DNA of 33,081 nucleotides, taken from Myxococcales bacterium. GTDB lineage: Bacteria; Myxococcota_A; Polyangia; Haliangiales; SHYZ01. Shown here piece by piece: positions 18,321-25,360 of this stretch. Both the position numbers and the translations under genes were made by a program. How positions within the stretch are numbered: the first letter of the stretch is position 1; each line of letters starts with the position of its first letter. Below the pieces are notes generated by a model that was not told the DNA's origin, searched no databases, and saw only the letters and a program-made list of their open reading frames with translations. The stretch lies in contig SHYZ01000015.1 in NCBI GenBank assembly GCA_009692535.1, positions 1-33,081 of the forward strand, in the 5' to 3' direction.

Positions 18321-19199
18321 CTACTCGCCCAGCTGCGCGAGATGGTTCTTACATTTTCTGGCGATGCACGAGCGTGGCGCCGCAACCACGCAGCGGCCGA
18401 GACTAGCACGCGCGCCCACGAGATCGCCGAGCCGATGTGCCGTCTGCGCGTCGAGATAGAGCGCCTCCAGCACGTTTGGGCAGCCCTGATCGCGCAGCGG
18501 CTCTTCCGGCAGCGCGGGCCGGAACAGCTCGAGCCGCCGCTTTGCCGAGTCGAACTGTTGCTGGTCGAAGTAGACCTCCGCGAGGCGATACGCCGCGAGG
18601 CAGAACCGCGGATCCCCCTGCAGTGCCTGGAGCAGCGCCGTCGTCGCCTTCGTCACCTCGCCCTGCTGGTAGCTCGCCCACCCAAGGTTCGCGCGCGCGA
18701 GCCGCTCGCCCTGCACCGGGAGCCGCGCCAAGTTCTCGAGTGCGCGAAAGGCGAGCTGCCCGGCAGCCTCCCAGTCGCGAAAGTGGAGCGCGACCCCTGC
18801 GCGGTTACCCCACGCATCGCCATAATCTGGCGCCAGCGTGGTCGCGCGCGCCAGCTTCTCGTCGGCCTTGCGCATCAACTCATCGTTGGTCGCGCCGAAC
18901 GAGTCGCCCTCGGGCGTCTCCTCGAGGCATTGCTCGACCTCGGCGGTGTTGGCGTTCCTGCCGGCGCGCACCACATAAATAAGGCCCCACAGGTTCCAGG
19001 CCTCCTCATTCTCGGCGTCGAGCGCGAGCGCCCGCTGGACCTCGACCTCGGCGGAGAGGTCGTCCCCCTTGGCCAGCAGGTCACGCGCGAGGTCCACGCG
19101 AGTACGCGATTTCTCGGGCTGAACGTCCTGCCCACAGCGCCCCGCGCCGACCGAGAAGAACGCGGCAAATACCAAGCATATCGCTAGCTTGCGTGGCAT
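18321..19199 (-). CDS. TPR-repeat exported protein (PilF/Tgl-like architecture)
   Basis: ATG at 19199: MPRKLAICLVFAAFFSVGAGRCGQ; TPR-like LLAKGDDLSAEVEVQRALALDAENEEAWNLWGLIYV and later repeats. Lipobox is not canonical. Confidence 0.7.
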   Translation of the reverse strand: MPRKLAICLVFAAFFSVGAGRCGQDVQPEKSRTRVDLARDLLAKGDDLSAEVEVQRALALDAENEEAWNLWGLIYVVRAGRNANTAEVEQCLEETPEGDSFGATNDELMRKADEKLARATTLAPDYGDAWGNRAGVALHFRDWEAAGQLAFRALENLARLPVQGERLARANLGWASYQQGEVTKATTALLQALQGDPRFCLAAYRLAEVYFDQQQFDSAKRRLELFRPALPEEPLRDQGCPNVLEALYLDAQTAHRLGDLVGARASLGRCVVAAPRSCIARKCKNHLAQLGE

Positions 19200-19240
19200 C
19201 TGCGAAGCCACGCTAGCAACTGCCATCTTAGGTGTCAACC

Positions 19241-19276
19241 ACGAAACTGACGACGAAGCTCACGACGAAGCTGCGC
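19241..19276 (+). repeat. Short degenerate tandem repeat, 3 x 12 bp (acgaagctgacg-like)
   Basis: acgaaactgacg / acgaagctcacg / acgaagctgcgc, just upstream of the TPR gene start. Confidence 0.6.
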
Positions 19277-19302
19277 GCGGAACGGCCGCCCCACGCGGGT
19301 GC

Positions 19303-19929
19303 CTACCGGCCGGTGAACTTGGCCTCGCGGGTAATCGGGCCGGTATCGGCCGCGGTCACCCGCAGGGTCGCGAGGCTCCGGTCGATGCTGACTGAGCCGC
19401 CGCCTGAGACACCCTCCCCGACCACTACCTCAAGCTGGTCGGTGGGTGAGCTCGACCGGCGCTTCCCGGTGGCCTGCTTGGCCGCGACGAAGCGCACGCG
19501 GTTCTCGCCGGCGCGCACGTCCTTGGTCACCTCGATCGCGACCCGGCCGTCGCCGCCGCGCACCTTTTTGACCAACCTGCCGTTCAGGTAAACATCGACG
19601 TCGTACTGCGCGGCGCCCGAACCGCGCTCGCTCGCCACGAGAAAGTAGCGGCGCGAGATCCGGCCATCGGCGGGCGGCGGCTCGTCGATCGGCTCCTTCG
19701 TGCTGGCCTGCACCGCGATCTTGAAGCCCTTGGCGGTGATGTGGATGTTCCCCTGCGCGTCGAACTTGACCTCACATGCCGCGAAGGTCTGGTTCGTGAG
19801 CACCAGGTTCTCGTCGAGCTTGATGCCGTTCAGCATGACGTCGCGCGCCGCAGCGACCCGTGGCAGCAGGAGGAGGACGAGGACGAGCGAGACCACAGAC
19901 GGAAATACAAAGCGAAGGGTTCGGGGCAT
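19303..19929 (-). CDS. Hypothetical exported protein
   Basis: ATG at 19929 with GGAGGAG upstream; signal peptide MPRTLRFVFPSVVSLVLVLLLLPRVAAA; then DVMLNGIKLDENLVLTNQTFAACEVKFDAQGNIHITAKGFKIAV. Confidence 0.65.
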   Translation of the reverse strand: MPRTLRFVFPSVVSLVLVLLLLPRVAAARDVMLNGIKLDENLVLTNQTFAACEVKFDAQGNIHITAKGFKIAVQASTKEPIDEPPPADGRISRRYFLVASERGSGAAQYDVDVYLNGRLVKKVRGGDGRVAIEVTKDVRAGENRVRFVAAKQATGKRRSSSPTDQLEVVVGEGVSGGGSVSIDRSLATLRVTAADTGPITREAKFTGR

Positions 19930-19971
19930 CGGCTCCTCCAATTATGAGCGCCAGTAGTATAAACGGTTGCC

Positions 19972-20826
19972 ATGGCGCGCGATGTGACCTTCGACGGAAC
20001 AGGTCGGCTTCGTCTTCACGGGACGCTCACCGAGCCGACTGGCCACGCGCCTCGCAAGGGCGCCGCGCTCGTGGTCCACGGCTTCGACGACCACTCGGGG
20101 CGCTACGGTGAGGTGGTCGCGCGGCTCGTGGGGCTCGGCCTCACGACGCTCGCGTTCGACTACCGCGGGCACGGTCGCTCCGAGGGCAAGCGCGGGCACT
20201 GTGACCGTTTCGACGACTACCTCGGCGACGTGGACGCGGCGATCGCCGTGCTGCGCGCCGAGGCTGGCGACGACGCAAAGCTCGCGCTCGTCGGGCACAG
20301 CCACGGCTCGCTGGTGCTGCTGCGCGCGCTCTGCGAGCCGGCCCGGGTGCCGCGCGGCGTGGCTGGCGTGGTGCTATTTTCGCCCTTCCTCGGCATCGCG
20401 TTAAAGGTGAATCCCCTCAAGGAGGGACTCGCGCGCGCGCTCAACCGGCTGCTGCCGCGCGTGGGGATCCCGACTGGGATTCCGGCATCGACGCTGAGCC
20501 ACGATGCCGAGCGGGTTCGCGCAGCCGGCTCTGACCCGTTGCGACACGGCGTCGCGACACCGAGGTGGCTCGCCGAGGCCGAGGCGGCACAGGCGTTTGT
20601 GCTCGAGCATGCGCCGGCACTCGCGGTGCCGTCACTCTGGCAGGTTGCGGGCGGCGACCAACTCGCGAGTGTCGCGGCGACCCAGCGCGTCATCGAGCGC
20701 GCGGGTGGCGAGAAGACGCTCCACCTCTACGACGGACTCGCACACGAGGTGTGGAACGAGCGCGATGCCGACCGCGTGCGAGTGCTCGATGACCTGACGG
20801 CGTGGCTCGCGCCGCGCTTCGCGTAG
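19972..20826 (+). CDS. Alpha/beta hydrolase (monoacylglycerol-lipase-like)
   Basis: ALVVHGFDDHSGRYGEVVARLVGLGLTTLAFDYRGHGRSEGKRG; nucleophile elbow VGHSHGS; C-terminal Asp/His region GGDQLAS...YDGLAHEVWNE. Confidence 0.88.
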   Translation: MARDVTFDGTGRLRLHGTLTEPTGHAPRKGAALVVHGFDDHSGRYGEVVARLVGLGLTTLAFDYRGHGRSEGKRGHCDRFDDYLGDVDAAIAVLRAEAGDDAKLALVGHSHGSLVLLRALCEPARVPRGVAGVVLFSPFLGIALKVNPLKEGLARALNRLLPRVGIPTGIPASTLSHDAERVRAAGSDPLRHGVATPRWLAEAEAAQAFVLEHAPALAVPSLWQVAGGDQLASVAATQRVIERAGGEKTLHLYDGLAHEVWNERDADRVRVLDDLTAWLAPRFA

Positions 20827-20976
20827 CTGCGTCACGCTGCCGGCGTGATCACGTGCGCATGAGCCACGCGACCTGACGAGGCGTGCGTTGCGGCGCACGA
20901 TCCCACCGCTATAATCGAAGCGTGGCGGCGGCCTCGTTGCGCGTGGCCCGCTGTTCAGAAGGGGAGCGAGAGCGCG

Positions 20977-21798
20977 ATGACCAGGCTGTTCGGCGTGACC
21001 TGCAACGAACCGGAGCGGCTGCCCTGTGCGTTGCACTCGGCACGCGCGGCGCTCACCGCCGACACCGCGCCGCACGGTTGGGGCCTCGGTTTTTACCAGG
21101 GCGGCGAGGTGCTGCTTCAGCGCCACCCCAAACCTGCTGGGCGCGTGGACTTTCACGGCGTGCTCACGTCGCTCAAAGCCGAGTACGCGATCGGCCACGT
21201 GCGCGAGGCCGGTTTCCCCGCAAAGCTCGAGAACACGCAGCCGTTCCGCTTTCGGCAGTGGGTGTTCGCGCACAGCGGCGCGCTCGCCGACTCCGACCTG
21301 CTGCGCGGCTCGCTCTCGTCGGCGATCCCTGACTTCCTCTGTCGCAACATTCGCGGTGGCACCGACTCCGAGCTGATCTTTCACCTCGTGCTCTCCTATC
21401 TACACGATGCCGGGCGCATCGATGATTCCGGCCTCCCGGCGGCCGAGGCTGGCCGCGCACTCGCCGACGCCGTGCGCGCAGTGCAGCGCTTCGCCGCACA
21501 AGCCGGTGCCGCGCCCCCCGGCCTCGATCTCGTGCTCACCAACGGTCGCATTCTCCTCGCCGTGCGCAGTGGGCGGCCCATGTGGTGGCGGCGCACGAAC
21601 GGTCTCGCCGACTGTGCGCCTTGCCGTGAGCAGGCCCGGCGCCCGGTCGCACATGAGCACCTGCGCGCGATCCTCGTGGTTGGCGATCCGGCGGTCATCG
21701 AGCCGGGGCTCGGATGGGAGGAGTTGCCCGACGGCACGCTGCTCCAGGTGACGCGCGACCTGCAGGTGAGCGCGGCGTCGCTCGCCCGCGCGAGTTGA
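20977..21798 (+). CDS. Class II glutamine amidotransferase-like protein, probably lacking canonical catalytic residues
   Basis: MTRLFGVTCNEP...PHGWGLGFYQGGEVLL...AIGHVREAGFPAKLENTQPFRFRQWVFAHSGAL...GGTDSELIFHLVL. Position 2 is Thr instead of Cys; HSG replaces the usual HNG. Confidence 0.8.
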   Translation: MTRLFGVTCNEPERLPCALHSARAALTADTAPHGWGLGFYQGGEVLLQRHPKPAGRVDFHGVLTSLKAEYAIGHVREAGFPAKLENTQPFRFRQWVFAHSGALADSDLLRGSLSSAIPDFLCRNIRGGTDSELIFHLVLSYLHDAGRIDDSGLPAAEAGRALADAVRAVQRFAAQAGAAPPGLDLVLTNGRILLAVRSGRPMWWRRTNGLADCAPCREQARRPVAHEHLRAILVVGDPAVIEPGLGWEELPDGTLLQVTRDLQVSAASLARAS

Positions 21799-21829
21799 GC
21801 ACGCTGCCGGGGCCTGCGCTATCGTCACG

Positions 21830-23434
21830 GTGTTGAGCGCGCTCGTCGGAACGCGGTTCGGCAACTACCTGCTCGTCGAGCGGCTCGGCGCCGACGGCGT
21901 GGCCGAGATATTTCGCGGCGTGCTGCGCGGCGACGACGGTGGCGAGCAGGTTGTGCTGCTCGAGCTGCTGCGTCCCGAGTTTGCCGACGACACCGCCGTG
22001 CGCGCACAGTTTCACGACGAGGCGCGACCCGCTTTCGGCTTTGCGGAAGCGGACGCGGACGCTGCCGGTTGTCGAACAATCGACCGTGGCGAGGTCGACG
22101 GGCGCGTGTTCGTTGCGCACTTGGTGGTCGATGAGCAAGCGGTCGCGCACGTCGTGGCGCGGCTCGCCGATCCCGCGTGCGTTCCCCACGCCGAGCTCGC
22201 GCCGACAACGCGCTGGCGGCAGGACTTGCTCGCACCCACGATGGCACCGGCGTCGGCAGGGCCGGACACCGCCGCTCGCCCCGTGAGGACTGCGATCACG
22301 CCGCCACGTCGTTCCGACTCATCGGCGCTGCCGATCGCAGTCGTCCTCGGTCTCGTCATTCTCGGCGCGGGCGCGATTGCGCTGCTCCGGCTCGCGCTGC
22401 CGGGCGAGTCCGCTGCCGTGGTGGACACGCCTCCCGACGATGCAGCAGCGAGTCTCCCCGATGCCACCGCCGACGCATCGCCCGATGCCGCGGCAGCAGC
22501 CGCTGCGCCCTACACCCTCGTCGCCACCGCCTCCGCCGCGGAGCGCGCGCGACTCGACGCCGCGGTGGCGCGACACGACTCAGTGGTGCGCGTGGGTCGC
22601 CTCACGCCGGACTACGCGCTGTTCCTTACGCTGCTCGACCTGCGCCTCGCGGGGCTCGTGCTCGATGACGCCGGCCATGCTGAGCCGGGCGCCGGCGCAC
22701 ATTTGCCGGCCGCTCTCATCGCAGTGGCCGCCGCGCGCCCAAGCCTCGTCGCCGCCGTCGATGCGGTCATCGCGTACGTCGCCGGCACCGGTGAGCTCCC
22801 CGCCGCAGTCGCGCTCGCTGCGCGGCGTGCGCTCGCCAGCGGGTCGGCCGTACGAGCGGTTGCACCCGAGCCCGCGCTGGTTATCGCTGCCACCCTTGCG
22901 GCGTGGCTCGCGCCCGCGCGCCCCGACCGACTCACCGACCTCGCGCGCGCTGCGTGGGCGCTGCCACCAGTGTGTCCCGCGATCACGTTGCCACGTCGTC
23001 GCTTCGCGCCGCTCGCGTGTGACACGGTCGCGCTCGACCACGCGCTCCGCGAGGCCGGCAAGGCAACCACCGCCGACGCGCTCGAGCGCTACCGGGCAGC
23101 GCAGAGCGAGGTCCGACTCGCAGGAGCCGCGGTGCGCGTGGCGGAGGTCGTTTGGTCGGCGAAGGGCGGCGTGGCTGCGATTGAGCTCGTCGCCACCGGA
23201 ATCGCTATCGGCATGGCGGCGCCGGACCCACGGTTCCGGCTGCTCGCTGGCGACCTCGACGGCGCGCTGCGCTCGAGTGACGCACTCCCGCTGCTCGCCG
23301 ACGCAGGCAGCGGAACACGGCTTCGCTTCGAGTCGCTGCCAGCGTCGCTGTTCGCGCCGGTGCTCGAACTTGTCGTCGGGGACCAGCGCACGCTGCTGCG
23401 CGTACCGCCGCCGGTTTTTGCGCCAGCGCGGTGA
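21830..23434 (+). CDS. Membrane protein with N-terminal kinase-N-lobe-like (pseudokinase) segment, one TM helix and a large C-terminal domain of unknown function
   Basis: GTG start: MLSALVGTRFGNYLLVERLGADGVAEIFRGVLRGDDGGEQVVLLELLRPEFADDTAVRAQFHDEARPAF...IDRGEVDGRVFVAHLVVDEQAVAHVVARL. No HRD or DFG follows. TM LPIAVVLGLVILGAGAIALLRLAL. Confidence 0.65.
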   Translation: MLSALVGTRFGNYLLVERLGADGVAEIFRGVLRGDDGGEQVVLLELLRPEFADDTAVRAQFHDEARPAFGFAEADADAAGCRTIDRGEVDGRVFVAHLVVDEQAVAHVVARLADPACVPHAELAPTTRWRQDLLAPTMAPASAGPDTAARPVRTAITPPRRSDSSALPIAVVLGLVILGAGAIALLRLALPGESAAVVDTPPDDAAASLPDATADASPDAAAAAAAPYTLVATASAAERARLDAAVARHDSVVRVGRLTPDYALFLTLLDLRLAGLVLDDAGHAEPGAGAHLPAALIAVAAARPSLVAAVDAVIAYVAGTGELPAAVALAARRALASGSAVRAVAPEPALVIAATLAAWLAPARPDRLTDLARAAWALPPVCPAITLPRRRFAPLACDTVALDHALREAGKATTADALERYRAAQSEVRLAGAAVRVAEVVWSAKGGVAAIELVATGIAIGMAAPDPRFRLLAGDLDGALRSSDALPLLADAGSGTRLRFESLPASLFAPVLELVVGDQRTLLRVPPPVFAPAR

Positions 23435-23440
23435 GCCACC

Positions 23441-25360
23441 TCACTCGAGACCGGACTCATCGGGCGGCGGGGCCGCGTCGGGGGTGGGCGGTGCTTCGAG
23501 CAGCCGGTAGGGGTCCTCTTCCACTTCCGGCAGCGACTGCGCTGCAGCGTCGGGCGGCACGCGGATCGGCACACCGGCGTCGGGCCACGGCAGGTCCAGC
23601 GGTTGTGCGGCGGGGATGATCACGGACGCGGGTGCCGCGGGACCATCGAGCAGCAAGAGCAGCGCTGCGGGATCCAGCCGCGTGGCAGTTCCCGACGGGA
23701 CTCCACTCGGTGCTGCCACCGTCGGGGCATCGGGCGTCGGCGTCCTGGCACGAACCACGATGAAGGTGCACGACACCTCGAGCGCGACCTTTTCCGGCAG
23801 CCGCACGCGGAGCCGATGGAGACCGACCTGCGTGAAACGTCGGCGCAGCTCGAACGCACCGACTCGCCGTGTCGACGCCCGTGCCACGAGCTCCCGCTTC
23901 GATCCGGTCGGCTCCTCGACCGAAACTTCGAGCGACCGCGTCTCATGCGGCGCACCGCCAGGCGCGAGCAGCTGCAGCAGCAGCAGCTGTTCATCGCCGA
24001 CGATCAGCTGCTGCGGCAGGACCACGCGCACCTGCCAACCCCTTGCGGCGAGCACGACCACTCGCCCCGACGGTCGCGGTTCGCGCGGCGCGGGCTCGAC
24101 CGCTGCCACCACTTTGGCCGCGCCCGCATCGACCACGGTGCCGGCCTCTGCGAGCTTGGCTGCCGCTTCCGTTCGCGCGCCTTCATCGCTCGCGCCGCTC
24201 GAACGCCATGCAACCGCGCCGAGCGCGATGCTGCCTACCGCGAGGATCGTGGCCAGCACAGCGAGCGCAGTGCGTCGTCCAGTGGGCGCACGCCACTCGA
24301 GCGACGAGTTGCCAAAAGCCGAGCTGGCGAACGGTGCGAGCTCTCCCGTCGGCAGGCTCCACGGGACTGGGTGTGACGCCGGCGCGGCGACGAACGGTGC
24401 CACCTGCTCTGCCGCGTGGCCCAGTGCGGCGTCGACTGCGGCCGCCAGCTCGTCGGCCGTCTGAAACCGCGCTGCGGCCGACTTCTCGAGTGCGCGCAGC
24501 ACGAGCGCGTCGACTTCCGGCGGCAACTCGGGGACCAGCGCACGCGGCGAGGGCGGCACCTCCTTGAGATGCGCGAGGACCACCATCATCCCCGAGCCCT
24601 CGAATGGAACCCGCCCGGTCAGCAGCTCGTAGAGGATCACGCCGAGGCTGTAGAGATCTGCGCGGTGATCGACCGACGCGCCCGACACCTGCTCAGGCGA
24701 CAAGTACGCTGGCGTACCGACGATCGTCCCCTCGCGCGTGAGGTGGCTCGGCTCGCCCGCGCCCGGCTCGCGCGCCACCTTCGCGATCCCAAAGTCGACC
24801 AGCTTGACGAAATCTCCGGCGGTGCGCCGCCGCGCGAGCAGCACGTTGGCCGGCTTGAGGTCGCGGTGCACCACCCCCTCGGCGTGCGCCTCGGCGAGTG
24901 CGGAGGCGATCTGGCGCACGATGCGAAGCGCGCGCGCGGGCGGCAAGCGGCCCTCGCGCGCGAGCAGCACCGAGAGCGGCTCGCCGGCGACGTACTCCAT
25001 CACGAGGTAAGGCACGCCGTCGTCGGTGCCACCGACGAGAAAGAGCGTCACGATGTGCGGATGCGAGAGCCGTGCGATGGCGCGCGCCTCACGGCGAAAG
25101 CGGCTCACCGCGTCGGCCTGGAGCATGAGGCCGGGGCGCAGCACCTTCACCGCGACGTGCCGATCCATGCCGCGCTGGCGTGCGCGGAAGACCGTGCCCA
25201 TCGCGCCCGCGCCGATCTCCTCCTCGACCTCGAACTGCCCGGCGAGCACCGCGCCGATGCCTACGCCGGCGTCGCTCCGCTCGAGCCGCGCGCCGTCACG
25301 CGGGCAGAACTGCGAACCGTCGTCGTACCGGTCCTGGCAGCGTGGACAGAGGTTCATCAC
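23441..25360 (-). CDS. Ser/Thr protein kinase with N-terminal zinc ribbon, TM helix and C-terminal extracytoplasmic region
   Basis: CPRCQDRYDDGSQFCPRDG; IGAGAMGTVFRA; HVAVKVLRP; VVHRDLKPANVLL; VDFGIAK; GTPAYLSPEQ; TM TALAVLATILAVGSIALGAVAW. Confidence 0.95.
   Translation of the reverse strand: MMNLCPRCQDRYDDGSQFCPRDGARLERSDAGVGIGAVLAGQFEVEEEIGAGAMGTVFRARQRGMDRHVAVKVLRPGLMLQADAVSRFRREARAIARLSHPHIVTLFLVGGTDDGVPYLVMEYVAGEPLSVLLAREGRLPPARALRIVRQIASALAEAHAEGVVHRDLKPANVLLARRRTAGDFVKLVDFGIAKVAREPGAGEPSHLTREGTIVGTPAYLSPEQVSGASVDHRADLYSLGVILYELLTGRVPFEGSGMMVVLAHLKEVPPSPRALVPELPPEVDALVLRALEKSAAARFQTADELAAAVDAALGHAAEQVAPFVAAPASHPVPWSLPTGELAPFASSAFGNSSLEWRAPTGRRTALAVLATILAVGSIALGAVAWRSSGASDEGARTEAAAKLAEAGTVVDAGAAKVVAAVEPAPREPRPSGRVVVLAARGWQVRVVLPQQLIVGDEQLLLLQLLAPGGAPHETRSLEVSVEEPTGSKRELVARASTRRVGAFELRRRFTQVGLHRLRVRLPEKVALEVSCTFIVVRARTPTPDAPTVAAPSGVPSGTATRLDPAALLLLLDGPAAPASVIIPAAQPLDLPWPDAGVPIRVPPDAAAQSLPEVEEDPYRLLEAPPTPDAAPPPDESGLE

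Follow-up and report, generated by a model that had tools for sequence, protein, structure and literature searches.

The gene at 21830..23434 (forward strand) of the window, meaning the whole 33,081-nucleotide stretch of Myxococcales bacterium contig SHYZ01000015.1 analysed here, encodes P0001, a transmembrane (TM) kinase derivative of 534 aa that lacks a C-lobe, as judged from the ORF, a kinase HMM and extracytoplasmic homology. It probably arose in this lineage by duplication of a conserved TM Ser/Thr receptor kinase (L003-type), the copy then losing its C-lobe, the bigger half of the kinase domain, in frame. L003-type kinases run from the kinase domain through a juxtamembrane linker and a TM helix to an extracytoplasmic domain. 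Observed in favour of a duplicate are homology of both the N-lobe and the extracytoplasmic domain, the absent C-lobe, the residue losses, synteny, complete relatives including a sister, and accelerated change. P0001 looks like a gene that was duplicated and then decayed in the ordinary way, not like a new class of signalling protein; it is best read as a relic, or as a sensor domain that is anchored in the membrane but gives no kinase output.

The ORF begins with GTG, with 31 bases between it and the stop codon of an upstream amidotransferase, and is known from a single draft MAG (80% complete, 235 contigs). P0001 had nothing significant in Pfam and NCBIfam, phmmer against the PDB returned StkP alone (E 0.08), and a whole-protein scan of GTDB for orthologues gave no match; the Pfam kinase profile missed it in a genome where about 35 kinase-domain places were counted. 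The N-lobe claimed for this ORF in the original prediction was nevertheless borne out by a family HMM, AlphaFold and Foldseek. Against the HMM, built from about 40 kinase relatives with P0001 itself left out, residues 6–116 (21845..22177, forward strand), a degenerate N-lobe running through the hinge and an alphaD-like helix, score 66 bits (E 1e-22). The best whole-genome match is the kinase N-lobe of a paralogue in the same genome (39% identity over residues 5–121, E 1e-15). AlphaFold predicts beta1–beta5, alphaC and a further helix, with a pLDDT of ~95 across most of residues 1–110; the input held 39 rows of kinase N-lobes, so the prediction rests in part on the same sequence evidence. Foldseek against the PDB aligned ~90–100 residues, and all 50 matches listed are protein kinases (best E 9e-4). 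By sequence and model, residues ~6–116 are identified as a homologue of a Hanks-type Ser/Thr kinase N-lobe (beta1–beta3, alphaC, beta4–beta5).

The beta3 Lys, present in 136/136 aligned kinases, is replaced by Glu45 (21962..21964, forward strand), as first noticed by eye, and the glycine-loop Gly, likewise invariant in 136/136 relatives, by Asp22 (21893..21895, forward strand). Alignment with relatives shows further changes at Met24 (to Val), His73 (the HxN His, to Glu) and the hinge Glu98 (to Leu); the alphaC Glu (Glu64) is retained. In total, 12 of 25 near-invariant columns are broken in P0001, where relatives break a median of 1; with four columns of contested alignment set aside, the count is 10 of 21. 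Two features of an active kinase, the beta3 Lys and a C-lobe with HRD and DFG, are absent, and P0001 is presumably catalytically dead and would be unable to phosphorylate.

The reported lack of HRD and DFG after the N-lobe extends to all reading frames: a six-frame HMM scan of 21601–23500 found no C-lobe or other kinase remnant in any other frame, which rules out a frameshift hiding a C-lobe. At most there is a doubtful HAE relic at residues 120–122, where alphaE-start, HRD and juxtamembrane alignments compete ('VPHAELAP' in P0001 against 'VVHRDVSP'). The linker that starts near the deletion junction (22178..22333, forward strand) bears a weak likeness to the juxtamembrane segment of the same-genome paralogue L031 (50 residues ungapped, p 0.02 for the strongest of twelve comparisons of this kind); this would fit a clean excision and is no proof of one. 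Within L031 itself, the alphaD and juxtamembrane segments share a weak similarity (29/54 bases), which is suggestive only as a clue to possible deletion breakpoints. AlphaFold secondary structure and hydrophobicity place a TM helix at 22334..22396 (residues 169–189, forward strand), close to its earlier placement near 22320–22392.

About 350 residues had been left unplaced. By profile comparison they correspond to an extracytoplasmic domain (22505..23431, forward strand) homologous to those of complete L003-type TM kinases in G104, G075 and G098, which have this domain in common (46–57% identity to the G104 version). The homology was found only once synteny had pointed to the G104 kinase, L196. 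With composition correction off, residues 226–534 of P0001 gave a raw score of 37.6 bits against the three-kinase profile, whereas ~1000 shuffles averaged 4.3 (s.d. 3.0) and reached at most 18.5, and the reversed sequence gave 7.9; with correction on, P0001 scored 7.4 bits against a maximum of 3.2. The match is collinear across about 200 residues, and a pairwise hhalign comparison gave E 6e-4. The Ala-rich composition keeps the statistical support for this homology modest, and a direct search of the extracytoplasmic part against 241 genomes of the class returned marginal matches (E about 2e-3). Over most of its length P0001 is thereby linked to complete receptor kinases, and since receptor-type kinases have this domain too, the suggestion of an envelope sensor was a reasonable one. 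In the three TM kinases (L207, L208 and L196) the domain spans ~290 residues and is not detected by Pfam. In P0001 a low-confidence prediction has its first part helical and its end beta-containing, and the remainder after the TM helix is poorly modelled.

The gene neighbourhood points to the same family. P0001 converges on winK (23441..25360, reverse strand), a complete zinc-ribbon TM Ser/Thr kinase whose orthologues, about 50–57% identical across the kinase domain, lie beside complete L003-type TM kinases in G003 and G104 (both convergent, as here), G051 and G067; in G127 the truncated end of an L003-type kinase lies near the winK orthologue at a contig edge. The class-II glutamine amidotransferase upstream (20977..21798, forward strand) serves as a second anchor and keeps this upstream, same-strand position in G001 and G003. 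A gene for a ~1100-aa lipoprotein is divergent to the L003-type kinase in G003, G104, G051, G067, G075 and G001. Synteny with winK and the amidotransferase therefore indicates that P0001 occupies the place of an L003-type kinase, with the intervening genes lost. Both its position beside the zinc-ribbon kinase and its extracytoplasmic domain, homologous to that of L196, L207 and L208, place P0001 in the L003-type lineage.

Conservation of the N-lobe-only form, on which the original prediction depended, was not found: full kinase domains are present in the sister paralogue and in the syntenic relatives from G003, G051, G067 and G104, so that close orthologues with a complete kinase are essentially what the search recovered. 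No second genome with the N-lobe-only form was seen among 56 genomes or 80 GTDB loci, a set of recovered relatives that includes no congener. The 80 loci hold 92 complete kinase ORFs and four partial ones, each cut by a contig end, and the loci examined from the whole-genome search were all complete, contig ends excepted.

The sister paralogue is L031 (G000:C203:4700-5812), on another contig of the same genome, which has a complete kinase domain 53–56% identical to those of L003 and L022 in a gene that runs off the contig end before its TM and extracytoplasmic parts. Genes resembling electron-transfer flavoprotein subunits lie upstream of it. The tree groups P0001 with L031 (support 86/73), with end branches of 3.91 and 0.14, respectively; P0001 is a long branch, so confidence in this placement is moderate. 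A relative-rate count of N-lobe sites derived in one sister only gave 30 in P0001 and 3 in L031 (p=1.4e-6), and the P0001 N-lobe is by far the fastest-evolving among the family rows compared. L031 likely keeps the ancestral function.

The history we propose would begin with duplication of an L003-type receptor kinase in this lineage, followed by an in-frame loss, presumably in a single deletion event, that took out about 200 codons lying between the hinge and the juxtamembrane linker. A dead cytoplasmic stub would then remain, in one frame, on the kept TM and extracytoplasmic part; the N-lobe would be vestigial, and any remaining activity would come from the TM and extracytoplasmic part. P0001 might bind the same signal as L031 or pair with it, without kinase output, as a decoy or dominant-negative form, or the gene may be in the course of being lost. 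That an N-lobe-only receptor is itself under selection, its N-lobe cap or extracytoplasmic domain acting as a dominant-negative or decoy of L031, seems unlikely. A functionless, dying pseudogene of the same origin, its frame open by chance and high GC, is a more serious candidate but still rather unlikely. The long branch and broken invariant sites speak for it, as does a fourfold-site GC of 0.79, low beside the 0.80–0.95 of most neighbouring genes, but 534 codons run without stop or frameshift and the N-lobe and extracytoplasmic homologies share one frame. In neutral simulations starting from L031 and run to 37% N-lobe identity, about 1–1.7 stops per 108 codons were expected, and the simulated probability of no stop in 534 codons was about 0.0002–0.008; the P0001 frame is fully open. 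Identity is 48% at third codon positions and 62–63% at first and second positions, unlike neutral decay. A frame that is still open speaks against prolonged neutral decay, and together with the excess third-position divergence it indicates that some selection acted on P0001 through much of its past, although part of this constraint may predate the loss of the C-lobe.

The original prediction took the N-lobe for a docking or dimerisation module; if kept by selection as such, it might pair back-to-back with L031 or winK and tune them. N-lobes of PknB-type kinases dimerise back-to-back, through residues that we take to be Arg10, Leu33 and Asp76. Mapped with a PknB sequence checked against the PDB, these positions correspond to N12, G38 and D85 in P0001, so that one of three is kept; among relatives, 110/136 carry K/R at the Arg10 equivalent and 98/136 carry Phe at the Leu33 equivalent. 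On this alignment the PknB-type interface appears to be mostly gone. The retained Asp, the open frame with its departure from the neutral expectation, the confidently predicted N-lobe fold and the adjacent complete kinase would suit a docking module, but the substitutions at the other two positions, the extreme acceleration of the N-lobe and the confinement of the form to one of the genomes searched make it quite improbable. What stands is a non-catalytic N-lobe on a membrane protein (Glu45, no C-lobe, a TM helix); a selected module is not supported, given two of three dimer positions lost, complete relatives and the fastest-evolving N-lobe. The back-to-back PknB dimer is mentioned in PMC6333020, and in the MviN pseudokinase a Leu and an Asp analogous to the PknB dimer residues are crucial (PMC12599244). 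Finally, a C-lobe dropped during contig building of the MAG would be conceivable in a draft of this completeness and fragmentation, but assembly error would not cause the independent loss of the catalytic Lys, loop Gly, His and hinge Glu, and the in-frame junction sits mid-contig, which leaves an artefact highly improbable.

As a duplicated and truncated receptor kinase, P0001 can be set beside several known systems. The L003-type kinases (L003 in G003, L022 in G001, L196 in G104, L207 in G075, L208 in G098 and L031 in G000) have the same N-lobe order, family motifs and linker; L196, L207 and L208 also share the TM-extracytoplasmic architecture and the homologous domain, and L003 and L196 the winK neighbour. 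All possess a complete C-lobe with HRD and DFG, whereas P0001 has none and also lacks the beta3 Lys and the loop Gly. Mycobacterium tuberculosis PknB, a Hanks-type receptor kinase, likewise combines a cytoplasmic kinase-derived domain, one TM helix and an extracytoplasmic domain, but it is complete, active and carries PASTA repeats, whereas P0001 is incomplete and presumably inactive. The MviN pseudokinase (ActPs3 family; PMC12599244), a bacterial Ser/Thr pseudokinase with a complete fold, is similar in being a non-catalytic kinase-derived domain in a membrane protein; it differs in having a complete pseudokinase domain with its dimer-interface residues kept, while in P0001 the C-lobe is missing and only one of the three dimer positions survives. 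The literature searched, which lay outside subscription journals, yielded no description of a bacterial kinase derivative reduced to its N-lobe. P0001 would illustrate how a receptor kinase can turn into a catalytically dead membrane protein: the gene is duplicated, and the copy then loses its C-lobe in frame but keeps the sensor half. If selection has retained it, P0001 would be a decoy receptor of natural origin in the Ser/Thr signalling of bacteria. It also counsels caution: synteny and paralogues should be checked before an isolated truncated domain is called a new module.

Upstream in the window, the gene neighbourhood 18321–21798 is conserved throughout the order; it comprises a TPR-like lipoprotein, a small secreted protein, an alpha/beta hydrolase and the class-II amidotransferase. 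Relatives of this neighbourhood often continue with a vWA protein and a TetR-type regulator, which are absent here. The ~1100-aa lipoprotein, which has no Pfam family, and the L003-type TM kinase divergent to it form a class-wide module, often beside a winK orthologue; the module was matched to no named system. Members noted for it are 23441–25360 of the window and L074, L188, L190, L196, L199, L216 and L069, and in G001 the lipoprotein lies next to a FadL-type outer-membrane protein (PF03349).
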